Origin: an uncultured Actinomycetes bacterium
GTDB taxonomy: Bacteria; Actinomycetota; Acidimicrobiia; Acidimicrobiales; RAAP-2
Length of the DNA stretch: 36,660 bases
Assembly: GCA_903871335.1 (NCBI GenBank)
Contig: CAIQGE010000002.1
Location: forward strand, 1-36,660
Direction of reading: 5' to 3'
Position numbers and translations under genes: made by a program. Positions 29,924 through 36,639 of this stretch are shown here, one piece after another (the first letter of the stretch is position 1; every line of letters begins with the position of its first letter). The notes beneath the pieces were generated by a model, which worked only from the letters and a program-made list of their open reading frames with translations, was not told where the DNA came from and did not search any database.

Positions 29924-29929
29924 AGCCTA
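29924..29929 (-). promoter_or_regulatory. -10 box for a leaderless mshA transcript
   Basis: TAGGCT on the minus strand is followed by six bases (CCTCGC) and the mshA GTG. Its first three bases are also the TAG stop of the XRE gene, so promoter and stop codon share bases. Confidence 0.4.
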
Positions 29930-30301
29930 ATTGTCCGGAGTCGTGGAACTTCCGGAAGCGTTATCGGCGAGGAAGGAACGAAGAATGGTCACGAGCGCCT
30001 GTCGCTGCGCGTCGGTGAGACGTTCGTCAGCCAAGATGGCGCCCTCGGACGAGCCGTAGCGATTCTCGTCCAGAATGCCCGCCTGCACGTACAACGTCTC
30101 CGCCGAAATCGACAACGCTTTGGCAATTTTCTGGAGGATGTCCGCACTGGGTCGCTTGAGACCACCTTCGATTTGCGACAGGTAGACATTGGAGACGCCG
30201 GCCATTTCGCCGAGGCGACGGAGCGACATTTGCGCGTTCGCTCGTTGTTCCTTGATGAAGCCACCGAGGTCCCGGACGCCGCTCGGGCGTTCCTCTGTCA
30301 T
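29927..30301 (-). CDS. XRE-family helix-turn-helix regulator
   Basis: A 124-residue protein beginning MTEERPSGVRDLGGFIKEQR. The HTH_3 domain spans about residues 12-70, with MSLRRLGEMAGVSNVYLSQIEGGLKRPSADILQKIAKAL as landmark (residues about 25-62); the tail has a short helix before a polar C-terminus. The frame is open 75 codons further up, but that part is antisense-like basic sequence, and the ATG at 30301 sits six bases after a TACGAT box. It is packed between sodX (15 bases upstream) and mshA. A role in the oxidative stress or nickel response of its neighbours is plausible, not shown. Confidence 0.87.
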   Translation of the reverse strand: MTEERPSGVRDLGGFIKEQRANAQMSLRRLGEMAGVSNVYLSQIEGGLKRPSADILQKIAKALSISAETLYVQAGILDENRYGSSEGAILADERLTDAQRQALVTILRSFLADNASGSSTTPDN

Positions 30302-30307
30302 GTGGTC

Positions 30308-30313
30308 ATCGTA
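30308..30313 (-). promoter_or_regulatory. -10 box for a leaderless XRE regulator transcript
   Basis: TACGAT on the minus strand, six bases (GACCAC), then the ATG at 30301. It lies directly behind the sodX stop, so the regulator can be expressed apart from sodX. Confidence 0.5.
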
Positions 30314-30315
30314 TT

Positions 30316-30630
30316 TCACCGACGCAGGGCCGACGGCGGGACGCGCCACACGACGTCTCGAACCGAAACGGGACCAAAAAGACGCGAATCTTCGGAGAAT
30401 TCTGCGTTGTCGCCCTGCACTTCGACAGTCGACGCGGCGACCTTCGTGACCCGCTTGACCAGTATTCGCGCCGGATCCCGTGGATCGCGTACACCAACGA
30501 CGTCGCCCACCCGCGGTCGCCGCCACCGACGAAACGCCGGCACCACCTCACCGGGCAGCAGCGTGGGGAGCATGGAGGGACCTTCAATCACGAGCTGACG
30601 GGCCCACCACGACTGACCGGGAAGTCTCAT
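30316..30630 (-). CDS. sodX: Nickel superoxide dismutase maturation protease
   Basis: A 104-residue S26-family (signal-peptidase-like) protease. The catalytic serine is S19 in IEGPSMLPTL and the general base is K59 in RILVKRV, followed by the family motif VQGDNAEFSEDSR. SodX removes the leader of NiSOD so that the new N-terminal His can bind nickel. It is divergent from sodN, the usual pairing. It lacks the transmembrane anchor of general signal peptidases, as expected for a cytoplasmic processing enzyme. Confidence 0.92.
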   Translation of the reverse strand: MRLPGQSWWARQLVIEGPSMLPTLLPGEVVPAFRRWRRPRVGDVVGVRDPRDPARILVKRVTKVAASTVEVQGDNAEFSEDSRLFGPVSVRDVVWRVPPSALRR

Positions 30631-32025: not shown

Positions 32026-32098
32026 GGGCCGCTAGCTCATCGGGAAGAGCAGGGGACTTTTAATCCCAAGGTGCCGGGATCGAGACCCGGGCGGCCCA
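32026..32098 (+). tRNA. tRNA-Lys (anticodon UUU)
   Basis: A 73-nt cloverleaf. Acceptor arm GGGCCGC (32026-32032) pairs fully with GCGGCCC (32091-32097); D-stem GCTC/GAGC; anticodon loop CTTTTAA at 32057-32063 with TTT at 32059-32061; T-stem CCGGG/CCCGG with loop ATCGAGA; discriminator A at 32098. The outermost anticodon-stem pair (32052 with 32068) is G-A, the only mismatch. CCA is not fully encoded. The 3' two-thirds overlap the antisense end of the integrase gene, showing that this tRNA is the integration target of the element to its right. Confidence 0.95.
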
Positions 32099-33341
32099 CA
32101 AAACCCCTGGTCACAGGCTTGGGGGTTATGAAATCGGCGTCAAATGTAGCCAATTGTGTAGCCAATGGGTCAGTTTGCTGTGGACGCGAGTGGACGTTTT
32201 CGTCGAAAAGTGCGGCCTGCATGGCCGCTGCGGCGCGAGCTCGTGAGCGCGGCATGAGGTGCCCGTAGACGTCCTTCGTGACCCTGATCGAGGCGTGTCC
32301 GAGTTGCTCCGCGATGACCTCGAGCGGCACATCCATGGCGATCATGATCGAGGCGCAGGAGTGACGTAGCTCGTGGATCGACCAGTGCCCGAGTCCGGCT
32401 TCAATCGCGATCTTGGGCACGGTCTTGCCGAACTGCTCCGGGTCGAGCGGTGTGCCGATGGTGGAGGTGAAGATCAGGTCGTGGTCGTTGTGCCATTGAC
32501 GGCCCTTCACCAGCTCTTCCGCTTCTTGGAAGGCGCGGTGTTGGTCCAGCATCTCGATCATCGACCTCGAGAGATGGAGGGTGCGACGACTCCCCTTGGT
32601 CTTCAGGTCGTCGAGGTGGACGCCATTGGAATCTCGGATGAGCTGGCGGCGAATGTGGAGGACGACGGTGCCTTCGGCCGCTTCGATGTCTTCCCACTTG
32701 AGACCGAGGATTTCGCCACGACGGAGCCCGAGCGACAAGGTGAGGACGTACGCCGCCGACAAACGGTGCTCGCTCGCTGCGAGGAGGAACATCCGGGCTT
32801 GCTCGGGAGTAAGCGATCGACCCTCACGGTGGTTCATCTTCGGACCTTCGGCGATGGCTGCCACGTTGCGAGAGAGCAAGCCGTCTTGTTCGGCCATCCG
32901 GAGCGCTCGACGAAGCGTCGCCCGGGCCATTCTCCTCGTCGAGGCCGAATAGCCACGTGCTTCGAGGTCCTGGAGCATCTCGGCCACGTCTGTTGGCGTT
33001 AGCTTCGTGAGACGGATCTTGCCGAGGGTCGGGTTGATGTAGTCGTGCACGGCCCGGGCATACAGAGCTTCGGTGCGCGTCGAGATCGTCCCGGGGATGC
33101 GCTTGGTCAACCATCCCTCGAGGTAGGCCTCCACCGTGAGGCGATCAGGCGCCAGCGTGACCCCTTGCTCGACGGCCAACTTCACCTCGCGCATCTTTGC
33201 GACAACTTCGTTGCGCGTCCTGCCGTTGAGGACCTTGCGGACGCGCTTGCCGTTCTTCCAGCCGAGGTCGACAGCCCCGATCCAGAGACCATCGTCGCGC
33301 CGGTAGATCGCCCCTTCTCCCTTTGTGCGACGTGTCGCCAT
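32037..33341 (-). CDS. Tyrosine-type site-specific recombinase (integrase)
   Basis: A 434-residue phage-type integrase. N-terminal AP2-like arm-binding region (about 1-55, GAIYRRDDGLWIGAVDLG), core-binding SAM-like domain (about 65-150), and catalytic domain with the Arg of LSLGLRRGEILGLKWEDI, the HELRHSCAS box, the GH pair in EQLGHASIRVT and the Tyr of KDVYGHLMP. Strand exchange should thus be active. I choose ATG 33341 (MATRRTKGEG), preceded by GGAGGGG; the stop of an 18-residue ORF overlaps it as TAATG. The last 20 codons are antisense to tRNA-Lys, so the C-terminus depends on the integration junction. Confidence 0.95.
   Translation of the reverse strand: MATRRTKGEGAIYRRDDGLWIGAVDLGWKNGKRVRKVLNGRTRNEVVAKMREVKLAVEQGVTLAPDRLTVEAYLEGWLTKRIPGTISTRTEALYARAVHDYINPTLGKIRLTKLTPTDVAEMLQDLEARGYSASTRRMARATLRRALRMAEQDGLLSRNVAAIAEGPKMNHREGRSLTPEQARMFLLAASEHRLSAAYVLTLSLGLRRGEILGLKWEDIEAAEGTVVLHIRRQLIRDSNGVHLDDLKTKGSRRTLHLSRSMIEMLDQHRAFQEAEELVKGRQWHNDHDLIFTSTIGTPLDPEQFGKTVPKIAIEAGLGHWSIHELRHSCASIMIAMDVPLEVIAEQLGHASIRVTKDVYGHLMPRSRARAAAAMQAALFDENVHSRPQQTDPLATQLATFDADFITPKPVTRGFVGRPGLDPGTLGLKVPCSSR
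32056..32098 (+). other. Putative attL core inside the tRNA-Lys 3' part
   Basis: Integrases that lie head-to-tRNA and end inside it normally recombine within the anticodon-to-3' segment of the tRNA, rebuilding an intact tRNA on integration. That predicts a core repeat in this interval, with a second copy (attR) at the far end of the element. I found no second copy in the remaining 4.5 kb, so attR lies outside the window or is lost. The exact core borders cannot be set from one end. Confidence 0.5.
32102..32127 (+). terminator. Possible hairpin behind tRNA-Lys
   Basis: AACCCC (32102-32107) pairs with GGGGTT (32122-32127) directly after the tRNA, and CCTG/CAGG inside it gives an alternative small stem. 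This could end tRNA transcription or form part of the attachment region. There is no T-tract, and it lies within integrase coding sequence on the other strand. Confidence 0.3.
32145..32166 (+). repeat. Tandem direct repeat TGTAGCCAAT near the attachment site
   Basis: Two perfect copies of TGTAGCCAAT (32145-32154 and 32157-32166) separated by TG, so they recur every 12 bp. They lie 47 bases inside the element from the tRNA end. They are also part of the integrase gene (encoding LATQLAT), but identical codon choice and closeness to att suggest an arm-type binding site for integrase or excisionase. That role is inference. Confidence 0.55.
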
Positions 33342-33397
33342 TACCCCTCCTCGCTTCTGCAACGGTAGACCTCGGATCTGACAATTTCATTCGTCAT
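33341..33397 (-). CDS. 18-residue coupling ORF between excisionase and integrase
   Basis: ATG at 33397 overlaps the excisionase stop (ATGA), and the TAA stop overlaps the integrase ATG (TAATG), with the integrase ribosome binding site GGAGGGG inside its last codons. The peptide, MTNEIVRSEVYRCRSEEG, has no recognisable domain. It probably works by translation itself, carrying ribosomes from xis to int, if it is used at all. It is too short for gene finders; the evidence is only its two exact junctions. Confidence 0.4.
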   Translation of the reverse strand: MTNEIVRSEVYRCRSEEG

Positions 33398-33573
33398 GAC
33401 GCCTCCTCCAATTGGTTGACGAACCACTCGAGGTCTGCTCGTCGAACCCGTCGAGAGCTACCGATCTTCACCGACGGCAAGACTCCCGAATACAGCAACT
33501 CGTAGACCCGCGACCGGCTCAGTCGAAGGATCTGACTGGTCTCGGCCACCGTCAAGAGGAGTTGATCTGACAC
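33394..33573 (-). CDS. Excisionase-like small helix-turn-helix protein
   Basis: A 59-residue MerR-like HTH_17 protein: LLTVAETSQILRLSRSRVYELLYSGVLPSVKIGSSRRVRRADLEWFVNQL covers residues 5-55 (landmark only), with the recognition helix at SRSRVYELL and the wing at KIGSSRRV. Such proteins steer integrase towards excision. The frame is open to a GTG at 33660, which would add 29 residues and overlap the divergent gene; I prefer the GTG at 33573. It is transcribed with the integrase. Confidence 0.82.
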   Translation of the reverse strand: MSDQLLLTVAETSQILRLSRSRVYELLYSGVLPSVKIGSSRRVRRADLEWFVNQLEEAS

Positions 33574-33629
33574 CCCCAACGGTCGACCATCCCGGCAGCC
33601 CTGCACTGATTTTTCACCTACTTGGGCGT

Positions 33630-33635
33630 TAGCGT
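33630..33635 (+). promoter_or_regulatory. Candidate -10 box for the membrane-anchored SARP-like gene
   Basis: TAGCGT is nine bases before the GTG at 33645, so transcription would begin at most about three bases before the start codon. It lies in the 71-bp gap shared with the divergent xis-int unit. Confidence 0.35.
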
Positions 33636-33644
33636 TTTCCCACT

Positions 33645-35774
33645 GTGCTTCGATTTCCACGTTCTGCTTCCCTTCTCATTGGTCTCTTTGCCACGTTCCT
33701 TGCCGTGGTCAGTTCGTTCACTGCGTCACTGCCTGCCGGTGCCACGTCTTGGCATCTCTTTCCGAACGGTCAGGTCATCGTCTTGTCGAGTTCTCTCGGA
33801 TCTCTGACCACACCCGTCGACGGACGACTACGGGGGCCGGACTTCCAAGTGACGGTGACTGGCGTGTCCTGGCCCGCCAGTGCGAATGGCTACGTGCCGA
33901 ACTCGGGACACCGCCTTGTGAGCTTCGATGTTGCGCTCACCGAGGGCACGAACGCGAGCACGACCACAGGGACCGCCACAAACTTGTCGCTCGTAGTGAA
34001 CGGCGACGCCACCGCACTCGACACCACCAACATCGAGTCCTCCGTGAGCCAGAGCCAGGGCTCGACAGGGACCGGATCCTCGGCCTACCTGGCGTCGGTG
34101 CCCAACGACACGACGAACGTCCAGCTGGTCGCCAGCGACTCCTCGTTCAGTCAGAGCTTCTCGCTGTGGTCGCTGAAGCGCACCTCCTCTGCCCCAAGCG
34201 TCCTCTACGCCGATCCGGTCAGCTCGTCGCTCACCGACTCGGTGAATCGCACGTTCAACGTGCCGATCACCAACCCGGCCGACGGCGTGACGTTGAACTC
34301 GGTGCTGGATGTCGCCTCGGCCCACCTCAGCGCATTCAACAACGACGGCGTCAACACCCCAGCACCCACGGGCAAGGCCTTTCTGACCATGACGATGTCC
34401 TCCGGTCCACCACAGCTGAACTACCCCGCACCCAACTGGGGTCACTTCTTCTCGGGGATGCAACCCTTTCCCGGCTCGGCCGTGACCTTCACGCCAAAGG
34501 GGGGCGTTCCGGTCTCGGCCGTCATGACCAATCCGGTCGATCAGACCAACAACGTCAATGCCACGTCCGATGATGGCTTGGTCGACGCGACCTACAGCCT
34601 GCTCGTCCCCGACACCACGACGACCGGCATGTTGACCTTCCACCCCTTCGTCACCAACGGTGTCGAGTACACCGGGTTCGGCGGGAGTCCGGGCACGACG
34701 CCACTGCGGGTCGGTGGCCCCACGTCGCTGGCGCTTACCTTCCCCGTTGCGACCGCGCTGCCAAGGCAGCCCACCCCTTCGTGGGTCAACGAGCCCATCC
34801 CCGCAACCGGCATCCCCGGTTCTGGAGGCATCGGTGGCGGATCTGGCATCTCGGTGTGGGTGGCCGTCATTGCTCTCGCGGTCATTGGCGGTGGAGTCGC
34901 GTACTGGCGCAGAAGGAATGCCACACCAGCAGCAGTGGTCTCCGCGCCACAGGTCATGGCCGATCCCCCAACCGGTCAACCCGATGACCCCGAACCACGA
35001 CCACAAGCCGAAGCCGGAGCCGGAGCGACGATTCCCGACAGCGTCCTGCTCGTCGATGAAGGCAGCGATGAACTCCTGCACGTCGACTTCTTCGGTCCGC
35101 TGACCATTGCGCCACTGGCTGGCAATGCACCTGACCCGGTGCGAGCGATTTACAGCTACCTGTCCTTCCAGGAGGGTCGTCAACGAAGTGGCGACACCAT
35201 TCAGACCACGCTCTGGCCACTCAACGCGAGCGATCGCGACGTGTCGAAGAAGACCTTGACCAACTACATGTCGAACGCTCGAGCGTTGGTTGGCGTCGAG
35301 CACCTGCCCGAAGCCAAGGGGCAACGTGGTTACGAGCTCCTTCGCTACACGACCGACTGGATTGAGTTCCAACGTCACGTCGCCGAAGCGGCCGACAGTC
35401 CCGACGACGTTGCGTACAAGCTGCACCACGACGCGTTGGCGCTCATCCGAGGAGCGCTGTTTGAGGGCGAGGAGAGTTCCTACTTCGACTTCGTGCGCGA
35501 CGAGGGCTACGAACGGGTGATCCAGAACGCTGTCTCGAAGGTTGCCCACGAGCACTTCCGAGAAGCCCTGTTGAATGGCGACCTCGACGAGGCCGAATGG
35601 GCGACGCGCCAGGGCCTCAAGATCGATTCTCGGGACACGGTGCTCTGGGCTGACCTCACCGACGTGATTGCCCGGAGGGGCAACGACCCCGAACTCGAGC
35701 GACACTTCGCCCACGCCGAAGGAGCCCTCGGACCAGACGCCGCCCAGCAACTCCGGGACCGACTGAACGCGTAA
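33645..35774 (+). CDS. Transmembrane protein with extracellular sensor-like half and cytoplasmic SARP/BTAD-like half
   Basis: A 709-residue protein. Residues 1-33 are a signal peptide or anchor (basic start, LLIGLFATFLAVVSSF, then LPAGA). Residues 35-385 are Ser/Thr/Asn-rich, predicted beta-strand, exported. A Gly/Pro linker (PATGIPGSGGIGGGSG) leads to one helix at about 403-424, then WRRRN, which marks the inside. From about 477 the sequence follows the SARP pattern: HVDFFGPLTIAPLAG, an alpha-rich part with TLWPLNASDRDVSKKTLTNYMSNARALVG like the winged helix, then GYELL and a helical BTAD-like region (580-709) ending in TPR-like repeats. It may sense something outside and bind DNA inside. 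GTG is the start; it is divergent from xis. Confidence 0.75.
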   Translation: MLRFPRSASLLIGLFATFLAVVSSFTASLPAGATSWHLFPNGQVIVLSSSLGSLTTPVDGRLRGPDFQVTVTGVSWPASANGYVPNSGHRLVSFDVALTEGTNASTTTGTATNLSLVVNGDATALDTTNIESSVSQSQGSTGTGSSAYLASVPNDTTNVQLVASDSSFSQSFSLWSLKRTSSAPSVLYADPVSSSLTDSVNRTFNVPITNPADGVTLNSVLDVASAHLSAFNNDGVNTPAPTGKAFLTMTMSSGPPQLNYPAPNWGHFFSGMQPFPGSAVTFTPKGGVPVSAVMTNPVDQTNNVNATSDDGLVDATYSLLVPDTTTTGMLTFHPFVTNGVEYTGFGGSPGTTPLRVGGPTSLALTFPVATALPRQPTPSWVNEPIPATGIPGSGGIGGGSGISVWVAVIALAVIGGGVAYWRRRNATPAAVVSAPQVMADPPTGQPDDPEPRPQAEAGAGATIPDSVLLVDEGSDELLHVDFFGPLTIAPLAGNAPDPVRAIYSYLSFQEGRQRSGDTIQTTLWPLNASDRDVSKKTLTNYMSNARALVGVEHLPEAKGQRGYELLRYTTDWIEFQRHVAEAADSPDDVAYKLHHDALALIRGALFEGEESSYFDFVRDEGYERVIQNAVSKVAHEHFREALLNGDLDEAEWATRQGLKIDSRDTVLWADLTDVIARRGNDPELERHFAHAEGALGPDAAQQLRDRLNA

Positions 35775-35779
35775 GGGAC

Positions 35780-36502
35780 TCACGCTGCTTCCTTTCGGGC
35801 GAGCGCTTCGCGGAGGGCGGCTTCAATGCGAGGTCGACGGTGTTTGAGGGCGACATGTGTGGTCCCGATCATCTCGGCGAAGTGATCAAGTGGAAGGCCG
35901 TCGATTCGGGTGCGACGGAGCATCTCCGCGTCGGCCGCCGTGATCACACCCTGACTCACCCAGTCGCTGAGATCACCAATGGCGCGAGCCAATGAGTCGC
36001 CCTCGTCCAGGGGCTCCGGGAGCTCTGCACCCATCTCAAGGGCGGACCGAAGTCGGTGCTCTCGACGGGTGGCGGAGCGGGCCTTCGTCCAGGTCTTCGA
36101 GACGAGAAGGGGAACTCGATTGCCGAGTGGAAGATCGGCGACCTCCACAATGGCGGCCCACGCTCCGGCGAGCACCTCTTCACTGACATCGAGGGCGGTC
36201 GGTCCCGCTCGGTGGACCAACTTCGCGACGCGGATGAAGACCGCCTCGAAGGCCACGAACGTGACGAGAGCCGCGTCGTGGTCTGTCGCCGACAGCCCGA
36301 TGAGGACCTCGAGATTGGAGCGAGTCACGGGGCTCGGGCTCTCAGGATTGCTCATGATCGCAAGTTCGAAGGGGCTCGTTGCCTCGCTGAGATCGACGCC
36401 GGCGGCTGTGAAGCGGAGCAGCGCCTCACAGCTGGCTCGGCCACGAGATCGCTGACGCAGTTCTTCTCGGAGGTATCTGTAGGGACTGGTGTGTGTGTTC
36501 AT
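35780..36502 (-). CDS. Sigma-70-like / helix-turn-helix protein
   Basis: About 240 residues from the ATG at 36502 (MNTHTSPYRYLREELRQR). A middle region (LDVSEEVLAGAWAAIVEVADLPLGNRVPLLVSKTWTKARSATRREHR, about 122-168, landmark) resembles sigma region 2, and the C-terminal WVSQGVITAADAEMLRRTRIDGLPLDHFAEMIGTTHVALKHRRPRIEAALREAL (about 180-232) resembles region 4 with its HTH. The N-terminal 60 residues are unassigned. The frame allows earlier starts (ATG 36541); no ribosome binding site decides. It ends five bases from the convergent SARP-like gene, without space for a terminator. Sigma-like identity is moderately sure; promoter choice is unknown. Confidence 0.65.
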   Translation of the reverse strand: MNTHTSPYRYLREELRQRSRGRASCEALLRFTAAGVDLSEATSPFELAIMSNPESPSPVTRSNLEVLIGLSATDHDAALVTFVAFEAVFIRVAKLVHRAGPTALDVSEEVLAGAWAAIVEVADLPLGNRVPLLVSKTWTKARSATRREHRLRSALEMGAELPEPLDEGDSLARAIGDLSDWVSQGVITAADAEMLRRTRIDGLPLDHFAEMIGTTHVALKHRRPRIEAALREALARKEAA

Positions 36503-36529: not shown

Positions 36530-36608
36530 GGCGAACCTCATGGAAAATGTCCCGACGCCAAGAAATTTCTTCAAGATCTTCACGACGTTTTCCCTGCTCA
36601 GAGGCCTT

Positions 36609-36639
36609 GGGATATCTCGTGGGACATCACTCGGGACAT
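36609..36639 (+). repeat. Three tandem GGGAYAT heptamers at 12-bp spacing
   Basis: GGGATAT at 36609-36615, GGGACAT at 36621-36627 and GGGACAT at 36633-36639 recur every 12 bp exactly, with unrelated 5-base spacers. A further copy, GGGACAT, is on the minus strand at 36553-36547. Short direct heptamers at about one helical turn are what SARP and OmpR-type regulators bind. Confidence 0.65.

Follow-up and report, generated by a model that had tools for sequence, protein, structure and literature searches.

A putative membrane-anchored SARP-like regulator and its ECF-sigma-like neighbor in actinobacterial integrative elements

Transmembrane regulators, SARPs, LysM-BTAD proteins, and integrative elements of the pSAM2 type are all known already, and to our knowledge little is understood of what sets off conjugation in the integrative elements of actinobacteria. 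At promoters, SARPs bind direct repeats with a spacing of 11 or 22 bp. According to the accessible part of a study of AfsR (PMC10936776), the SARP unit is N-terminal, and this domain contacts sigma region 4 as well as its DNA box. In AfsR as in EmbR (PDB 2fez), a winged helix is followed by BTAD helices.

ToxR and CadC carry the winged helix at the N terminus and the sensor at the C terminus, which is the reverse of the protein that we describe here, and they have no BTAD unit. Like our protein, they combine a sensor, a transmembrane helix, and a winged helix in one piece, as described in the accessible part of a survey of transmembrane regulators (PMC10269533); its main text contains none of the words BTAD, SARP, or Actinobacteria. 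LysM-BTAD proteins are annotated on plasmids of Streptomyces, Brachybacterium, and others, and the available portion of a table of Tad loci enters PAGK_2369 as "LysM, BTAD" (PMC3666418). For elements of the pSAM2 type, the accessible parts of two descriptions (PMC3218068, PMC3364876) name as regulators Pra, GntR (KorSA), XRE, NsdA-like, and WhiB-like proteins, and neither a membrane SARP nor a sigma-like partner is among those named there. The initial analysis of the 2011 survey, as far as its available text goes, detected elements of this kind in Actinomycetales alone; the other groups of actinobacteria that it checked had none (PMC3218068). In the open-access literature, we found no description of an outer half, transmembrane helix, and SARP unit in this order, of its pairing with a sigma-like gene, or of the two behaving as a cassette.

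The stretch of DNA that we analyzed (the window; 36,660 bases) makes up the whole of contig C2 in a draft genome of 2.23 Mb, and the element therefore lacks its far end here. The genes of interest run from a tRNA-Lys through an integrase, an excisionase, the regulator, and a sigma-like gene to the end of the contig:

32026-32099, + strand: tRNA-Lys(TTT), the likely integration target (ARAGORN); overlaps the integrase ORF
32037-33362, - strand: tyrosine integrase, its 3' end antisense to the tRNA-Lys (PF00589, E = 3.9e-25)
33394-33660, - strand: excisionase-type HTH protein, divergent from the regulator (PF12728, E = 4.1e-13; TIGR01764, E = 4.9e-11)
33645-35774, + strand: putative membrane-anchored SARP-like regulator, 709 amino acids (ORF with a GTG start; relatives are 28-40% identical)
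33645-33743, + strand: predicted signal peptide, residues 1-33 (hydropathy peak; cleavage near PAGA/TS, by eye)
33750-34190, + strand: outer domain A, residues 36-182 (poorly modeled, pLDDT <50; beta-rich in that model)
34212-34754, + strand: outer domain B, residues 190-370 (predicted beta sandwich common to the family; alignment and model)
34845-34904, + strand: predicted transmembrane helix, residues 401-420, followed by WRRR (hydropathy, sequence)
34905-35075, + strand: cytoplasmic linker rich in proline, alanine, and acidic residues, residues 421-477 (sequence)
35076-35357, + strand: winged-helix segment of the OmpR/SARP type, residues 478-571 (profile matches to EmbR and AfsR; AlphaFold not confident)
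35358-35771, + strand: BTAD/TPR-like helices, residues 572-709 (profiles; AlphaFold for the TPR end)
35780-36502, - strand: divergent ECF-sigma-like protein, 240 amino acids from the ATG at 36502, with a longer GTG start at 36583 (eight-member profile against the PDB)
36609-36639, + strand: three direct copies of GGGAYAT at 12-bp spacing, upstream of the sigma-like gene (pattern match)

The regulator contains no cysteine and has two hydropathy peaks. The peak at residues 8-26 (mean 1.98) fits a signal peptide or anchor, and the peak at residues 401-419 (mean 2.22) fits a transmembrane helix, which is followed by YWRRRN. About 365 residues would be exported, and residues 35-395 are 13% serine and 13% threonine. 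An earlier reading of this DNA from its letters alone (the sequence-only reading) had proposed an N-terminal signal or anchor, a Ser/Thr-rich exported stretch of about 350 residues, and a single transmembrane helix at 403-424 with basic residues after it. All of these features were borne out, with the helix now at about 401-420. Judged from hydropathy and by eye, the N-terminal half is predicted to lie outside and the C-terminal half inside; signals for the reverse topology, which would have counted against that reading, did not turn up. The same layout exists in relatives, including the transmembrane helix with its basic cytoplasmic flank. A DNA-binding-type domain and a transmembrane helix within one chain, both recognized from sequence alone, are features of this protein.

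The inner half was difficult to classify from one sequence. Pfam returned nothing for the regulator at E ≤ 1 and so missed both inner domains, NCBIfam gave one irrelevant match (E = 0.1), and phmmer gave weak TPR matches only. (The lack of any Pfam match agrees with the earlier statement that there is no LysM motif, and we rejected LysM-type binding of the cell wall by this protein for that reason.) We therefore relied on profiles. A profile of ten aligned cytoplasmic parts from the family (A3) matched EmbR in the PDB (2fez) over positions 4-230, which run from the winged helix through the BTAD helices, with E = 1.6e-11, and matched AfsR (8hvr) over positions 2-141 with E = 5.9e-8. Designed TPR proteins also score with this profile. 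When its ten members were scanned individually against Pfam (E ≤ 1), Trans_reg_C was found in 7 and BTAD in 2. In relatives with a matching outer half, BTAD exceeds the Pfam cut-off of 22.1 bits (L009, 36.4 bits; L072, 25.7 bits). A profile from four integrative-element members alone matched EmbR over the winged-helix part (E = 0.0056). The winged-helix segment alone (profile A9; seven members, all of the integrative-element type) had just three PDB matches at E ≤ 5, all of them OmpR/SARP-type: EmbR (0.0016), 1kgs (0.46), and AfsR (0.51). The alignment of these seven members has 12 invariant columns, including N68, R74, G78, P83, and Y91.

Structure prediction told us less about this half. The AlphaFold model, from four sequences, has a mean pLDDT of 55.5; the blocks within model residues 1-100 (the winged helix) are at 25-40, and values of 72-93 are reached only in the last eight ten-residue blocks, which are the TPR helices. 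A structural search with this model returned lists filled with TPR-type chains, with no winged-helix chain in the lead, which says little either way because the winged-helix part was modeled poorly. The winged helix in the regulator thus rests on sequence profiles. The sequence-only reading had proposed a winged helix followed by BTAD helices and had suggested comparing residues 470-709 to EmbR and AfsR: the profiles match both proteins and uphold that order, so the inner half does not reduce to BTAD/TPR helices, while the AlphaFold part of the comparison did not recover the winged helix. The profile match to SARPs and EmbR covers the whole unit, but where SARPs have this unit at the N terminus of a soluble protein, here it comes last (residues 478-709), after a signal peptide, an outer half, and a transmembrane helix. 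Because of this C-terminal, membrane-tethered position, we call the protein SARP-like and do not class it as a SARP.

The outer half appears to consist of two domains. In the model of this half, domain B came out as a beta sandwich: within residues 200-369, pLDDT is 69-88 in 13 of 17 ten-residue blocks and 42-62 in the other four. Domain A was not modeled with confidence (pLDDT below 50). It is missing from four aligned relatives, and similar sequence is present in L009 (by phmmer) and L071 (by eye); this patchy presence suggests that the outer half is modular. Foldseek with the outer-half model gave no match at E ≤ 0.001, and the best VIA-align Z scores for domain B (8.5 for 4les and 8.3 for 3fbq) are borderline, so we assign no function from structural matches. 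Two loci from the same genus (L036:6389-7261 and L038:9668-10450) encode domain B and a transmembrane helix without the SARP half, and local profiles found no marker gene of the element at either.

The most regular feature of the regulator's locus is its sigma-like partner, which the sequence-only reading overlooked, as it did the exchangeable outer half. The two genes lie tail to tail: exactly 5 bp separate the two stop codons in 11 of 14 pairs (the window included) and 8 bp in two, and in L071 the genes overlap by 16 bp. We built a profile (A10) from the window's sigma-like protein and those of seven of 13 relatives' loci. Its top five matches in the PDB are all ECF sigma factors (SigL, three chains of SigE, and CnrH; E = 7.6e-4 to 1.5e-3), and the next matches, from E = 0.36, are unrelated proteins (ferritin, von Willebrand factor). 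Pfam sigma domains were found in single members only (best E = 6.1e-5) and not in the window's copy. These matches suggest that the regulator's neighbor is ECF-sigma-like.

Sigma-like genes also occur in a different kind of element. When we scanned 30 further loci, two elements with coupling proteins had a relative of the sigma-like gene just before the relaxase gene (L077:15012-16271, E = 5.5e-22; L075:4824-5636, E = 3.2e-18). Neither protein has a Pfam match. The membrane BTAD protein of both elements has another kind of sensor half, and the regulator is at the opposite end of the relaxase/coupling operon from the sigma-like gene. No sigma-like gene was detected for five members of the wider family (L073, L074, L072, L078, and L106), so the sigma-like protein is not always needed.

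That the regulator belongs to an integrative element had also been proposed, and we agree: an integrase whose gene reads into a tRNA-Lys gene and an excisionase adjoin it (the longest excisionase frame overlaps the regulator by 16 bp), and all 13 relatives of the integrative-element type that we examined lie beside RepSA. The window resembles pSAM2-type elements in its tRNA site, int, and xis, and the relatives resemble them in RepSA and FtsK-type genes (available parts of PMC3218068 and PMC3364876). In the window, the contig stops 158 bp past the ATG of the sigma-like gene, and the only RepSA that we found in this genome is on contig C32; the missing part of the element presumably held the same operon.

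We searched 99 genomes of the genus with a profile of the family (A5, E ≤ 1e-30), and 12 matched, although G035 and G028 have nothing but the outer half. The genus also yields weaker matches, which are BTAD proteins of a different, long-form kind. RepSA is present in 29 of the 99 genomes, with 44 matches, and we scanned the surroundings of 32 of these, which comprise 12 loci with a BTAD-bearing regulator and 20 others. (L086 and L162 are one contig and count as one locus.) Together with L071, from another family, this gives 13 regulator loci of the integrative-element type besides the window. All 13 have both a pSAM2-type RepSA and a sigma-like gene, although the sigma-like profile was built on seven of these loci, so that only six (L163-L168) are independent matches. 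FtsK is present in 11 of the 13, and the other two (L037 and L165) are cut by the end of the contig inside or just before Rep. Within the genus, the sigma-like gene accompanies RepSA at 12 of 12 loci with the regulator versus 2 of 20 without it (Fisher p = 4e-7, which ignores relatedness). As for those two, the gene at L176 adjoins Rep, and an ECF-like gene lies about 3 kb off at L181.

On a tree of Rep with 35 rows (34 of them different, with L071 on a long branch), the distribution of the regulator and sigma-like cassette requires five changes, of which at least three are forced by well-supported branches. This implies that the cassette was gained or lost more than once and, apart from L176, as a pair. 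The regulator copy of genome G014 (L037:2146-3954) is split into separate frames with a few undetermined residues, due to decay or an assembly error. At L178, L180, L182, and L185, the integrase directly follows RepSA, and local profiles did not find FtsK-type or SCO3933-like genes.

We also looked for shared sequence near the genes that the pair might control. The first gene of the operon has the hexamer TGTTCG 70-75 bp ahead of its start codon in 6 of 9 elements with the cassette and in 0 of 9 without it, while 2,000 shuffles gave an average of 0.07 of 9 and at most 2; these figures are optimistic because the k-mer was picked after we viewed the regions and because some of the controls depend on one another. 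L186 and L187 are nearly the same sequence. The first operon gene encodes a small conserved protein, which we call SCO3933-like. Of the three cassette elements without the box, L035 has the related sequence TTTCGAAA, and L071 and L168 lack it. The test left out four of the 13 cassette relatives (L037, L165, L166, and L167), which have no first operon gene on the contig. It also omitted 11 of the 20 cassette-free loci, as 10 have no SCO3933-like gene and L169 has that gene at the end of a contig. For L175, the start codon is uncertain, and its sole nearby TGTTCG is about 160 bp before the conserved part. The association of the box with the cassette could reflect common descent instead of function.

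The GGGAYAT repeats occur in one place in the window's genome, with inverted copies nearby. The spaced pattern has two matches versus 0.04 expected, although it was chosen after we had seen the repeats. For comparison with the 11- or 22-bp spacing of SARP repeats, only this triple with its 12-bp spacing was seen near the sigma-like gene; the repeats might be an operator or an origin sequence. We rejected them as a family-wide operator because, among 86 loci, only two copies of the window match. In the other intergenic regions, only L073 and L074 exceed the 95% shuffle level for spaced heptamers. Common 8-mers in the region between xis and the regulator are weak (5 of 12 regions, versus 3-4 in shuffles).

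The inner unit is more widespread than the cassette. Across the order, 109 of 298 genomes match a regulator profile (A1) at E ≤ 1e-15, mostly via the inner part, and 396 genomes drawn from the phylum gave four matches at 1e-28, including two from the genus. Seven regulator loci have a coupling-protein gene (L039, L072, L075, and L077 by Pfam; L076, L078, and L106 by a local profile), and five of the seven also match a relaxase profile. In each of the seven, regulator and coupling gene point toward each other, and in five they are 58 bp or less apart. At L079, the neighbors include VirB4/TraG-type and coupling-type ATPase genes above the Pfam cut-off and a TrbL-like gene below it.

Other relatives of the unit are near Tad pilus genes. 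By sequence, LysM-BTAD proteins are relatives of the regulator through the cytoplasmic part (25-30% identity in the 20 records listed out of 55), and LysM replaces the regulator's beta-sandwich outer half. The regulator's own genome encodes a relative with LysM on contig C37 (L080, E = 2e-6). The plasmid relatives are annotated as LysM proteins and follow TadE/TadG-type genes in 2 of the 3 plasmids that we inspected. Using local profiles from two plasmid loci, we found Tad genes near 14 of 20 further loci (L088-L107), including 13 of the 14 putative LysM-BTAD loci of the long form, L088-L101. Of the rest, L106 has a coupling protein and a relaxase, and five have neither Tad nor coupling genes: L092, on a short contig, and L102-L105, which are long forms from the same genus. 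Overall, the BTAD proteins of L081, L083, L088-L091, L093-L101, and L107, some on plasmids and some in genomes, have Tad pilus genes nearby, with LysM annotated on the plasmids. We found no open-access paper that ties LysM proteins to the regulation of Tad pili.

With modest confidence, we favor the view that the protein is a single-pass, one-piece SARP-type transcription regulator of its integrative element and that it acts with the ECF-sigma-like protein. In its closest relatives it stands with a second regulator next to the genes that copy the element, which makes it a likely on/off switch for the element. The sequence-only reading likewise proposed a transcription regulator, through which the element might read the cell surface. 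In our proposed mechanism, a cue from the envelope would act on the outer beta-sandwich domains; the outer half, together with the pilus and transfer genes that neighbor the relatives, leads us to infer a cue of envelope or contact type. The inner half, on its flexible linker of about 55 residues, would then bind promoter DNA of the element and contact sigma region 4, as AfsR does. Since the SARP domain of AfsR carries sigma region 4 when on its DNA box, a sigma protein makes sense as the close partner of a SARP unit. Binding would raise or release transcription of the replication and transfer operon, and perhaps of the xis-int genes too, which are a second candidate target because they start divergently right at the start of the regulator.

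An outer sensor joined to a transmembrane helix is also the usual layout of an anti-sigma factor. The inner half might instead hold the sigma-like protein at the membrane and free it upon a signal from outside, with DNA binding secondary or lost. The tight pairing of the two genes fits this explanation, as does the ability of SARP units to contact sigma region 4 (accessible part of PMC10936776). However, the winged-helix segment stays conserved, with its invariant columns, and some members of the wider family have no detected sigma-like gene. Furthermore, anti-sigma genes usually follow the sigma gene in one operon, whereas here the two genes converge. We consider a membrane anti-sigma factor unlikely. 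The presence of the inner unit beside coupling proteins, beside the VirB4/TraG-type ATPase genes of L079, and beside Tad genes would suit a part of the transfer apparatus, whose inner half binds element DNA or coupling proteins while its outer half makes contact with the wall or a partner cell, so that the SARP-like unit is a scaffold. But the regulator is present at 12 of the 44 RepSA matches in the genus and at none of the others, it is on the opposite strand from the transfer operon, and its partner is a sigma-like protein, which makes this role quite improbable. Finally, the single transmembrane helix, the long linker, and the complete SARP-type unit would allow a signal to trigger cleavage of the protein within the membrane or close to it, so that the free inner half acts as an ordinary soluble SARP; nothing speaks directly against such release, but we view it as very unlikely.

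If the membrane-bound transcription regulator is the right reading, then the membrane sensor, the SARP unit, and the sigma-like protein would form a direct wire from the envelope to replication and transfer, and the recurrence of wHTH-BTAD units beside pilus and transfer genes would be explained. More speculatively, and with considerable doubt, the pair might be a portable two-gene switch: a membrane SARP with an exchangeable outer sensor that serves its own ECF-like sigma factor and adapts it to a TGTTCG promoter, so that replication and transfer wait for a cue from the envelope or from contact. With the same inner unit, this logic might then apply to the relaxase/coupling-protein elements and, with LysM, to Tad pili.

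A few observations concern the ends and the origin of the element. We dropped a phage origin, as viral contigs (searched with P0001 and A6) and phage records gave no relatives and PHROGs has no match for the regulator. We also considered an orphan 40-bp copy of the 3' end of tRNA-Lys on contig C28 (93% identical) as the right end or attR, and dropped it due to its mismatches and because local profiles found no element genes beside it. This copy (G000:C28:30043-30082; L109, L112) is outside any tRNA called by ARAGORN and is adjoined by transposase-like and toxin-antitoxin-like ORFs, according to our reading of the ORFs; it is perhaps the scar of another island. To the left of the element in the window, a small S26-peptidase-like ORF (30316-30630, - strand) and an XRE-type HTH ORF (29927-30526, - strand), both recognized by eye, overlap in different frames.
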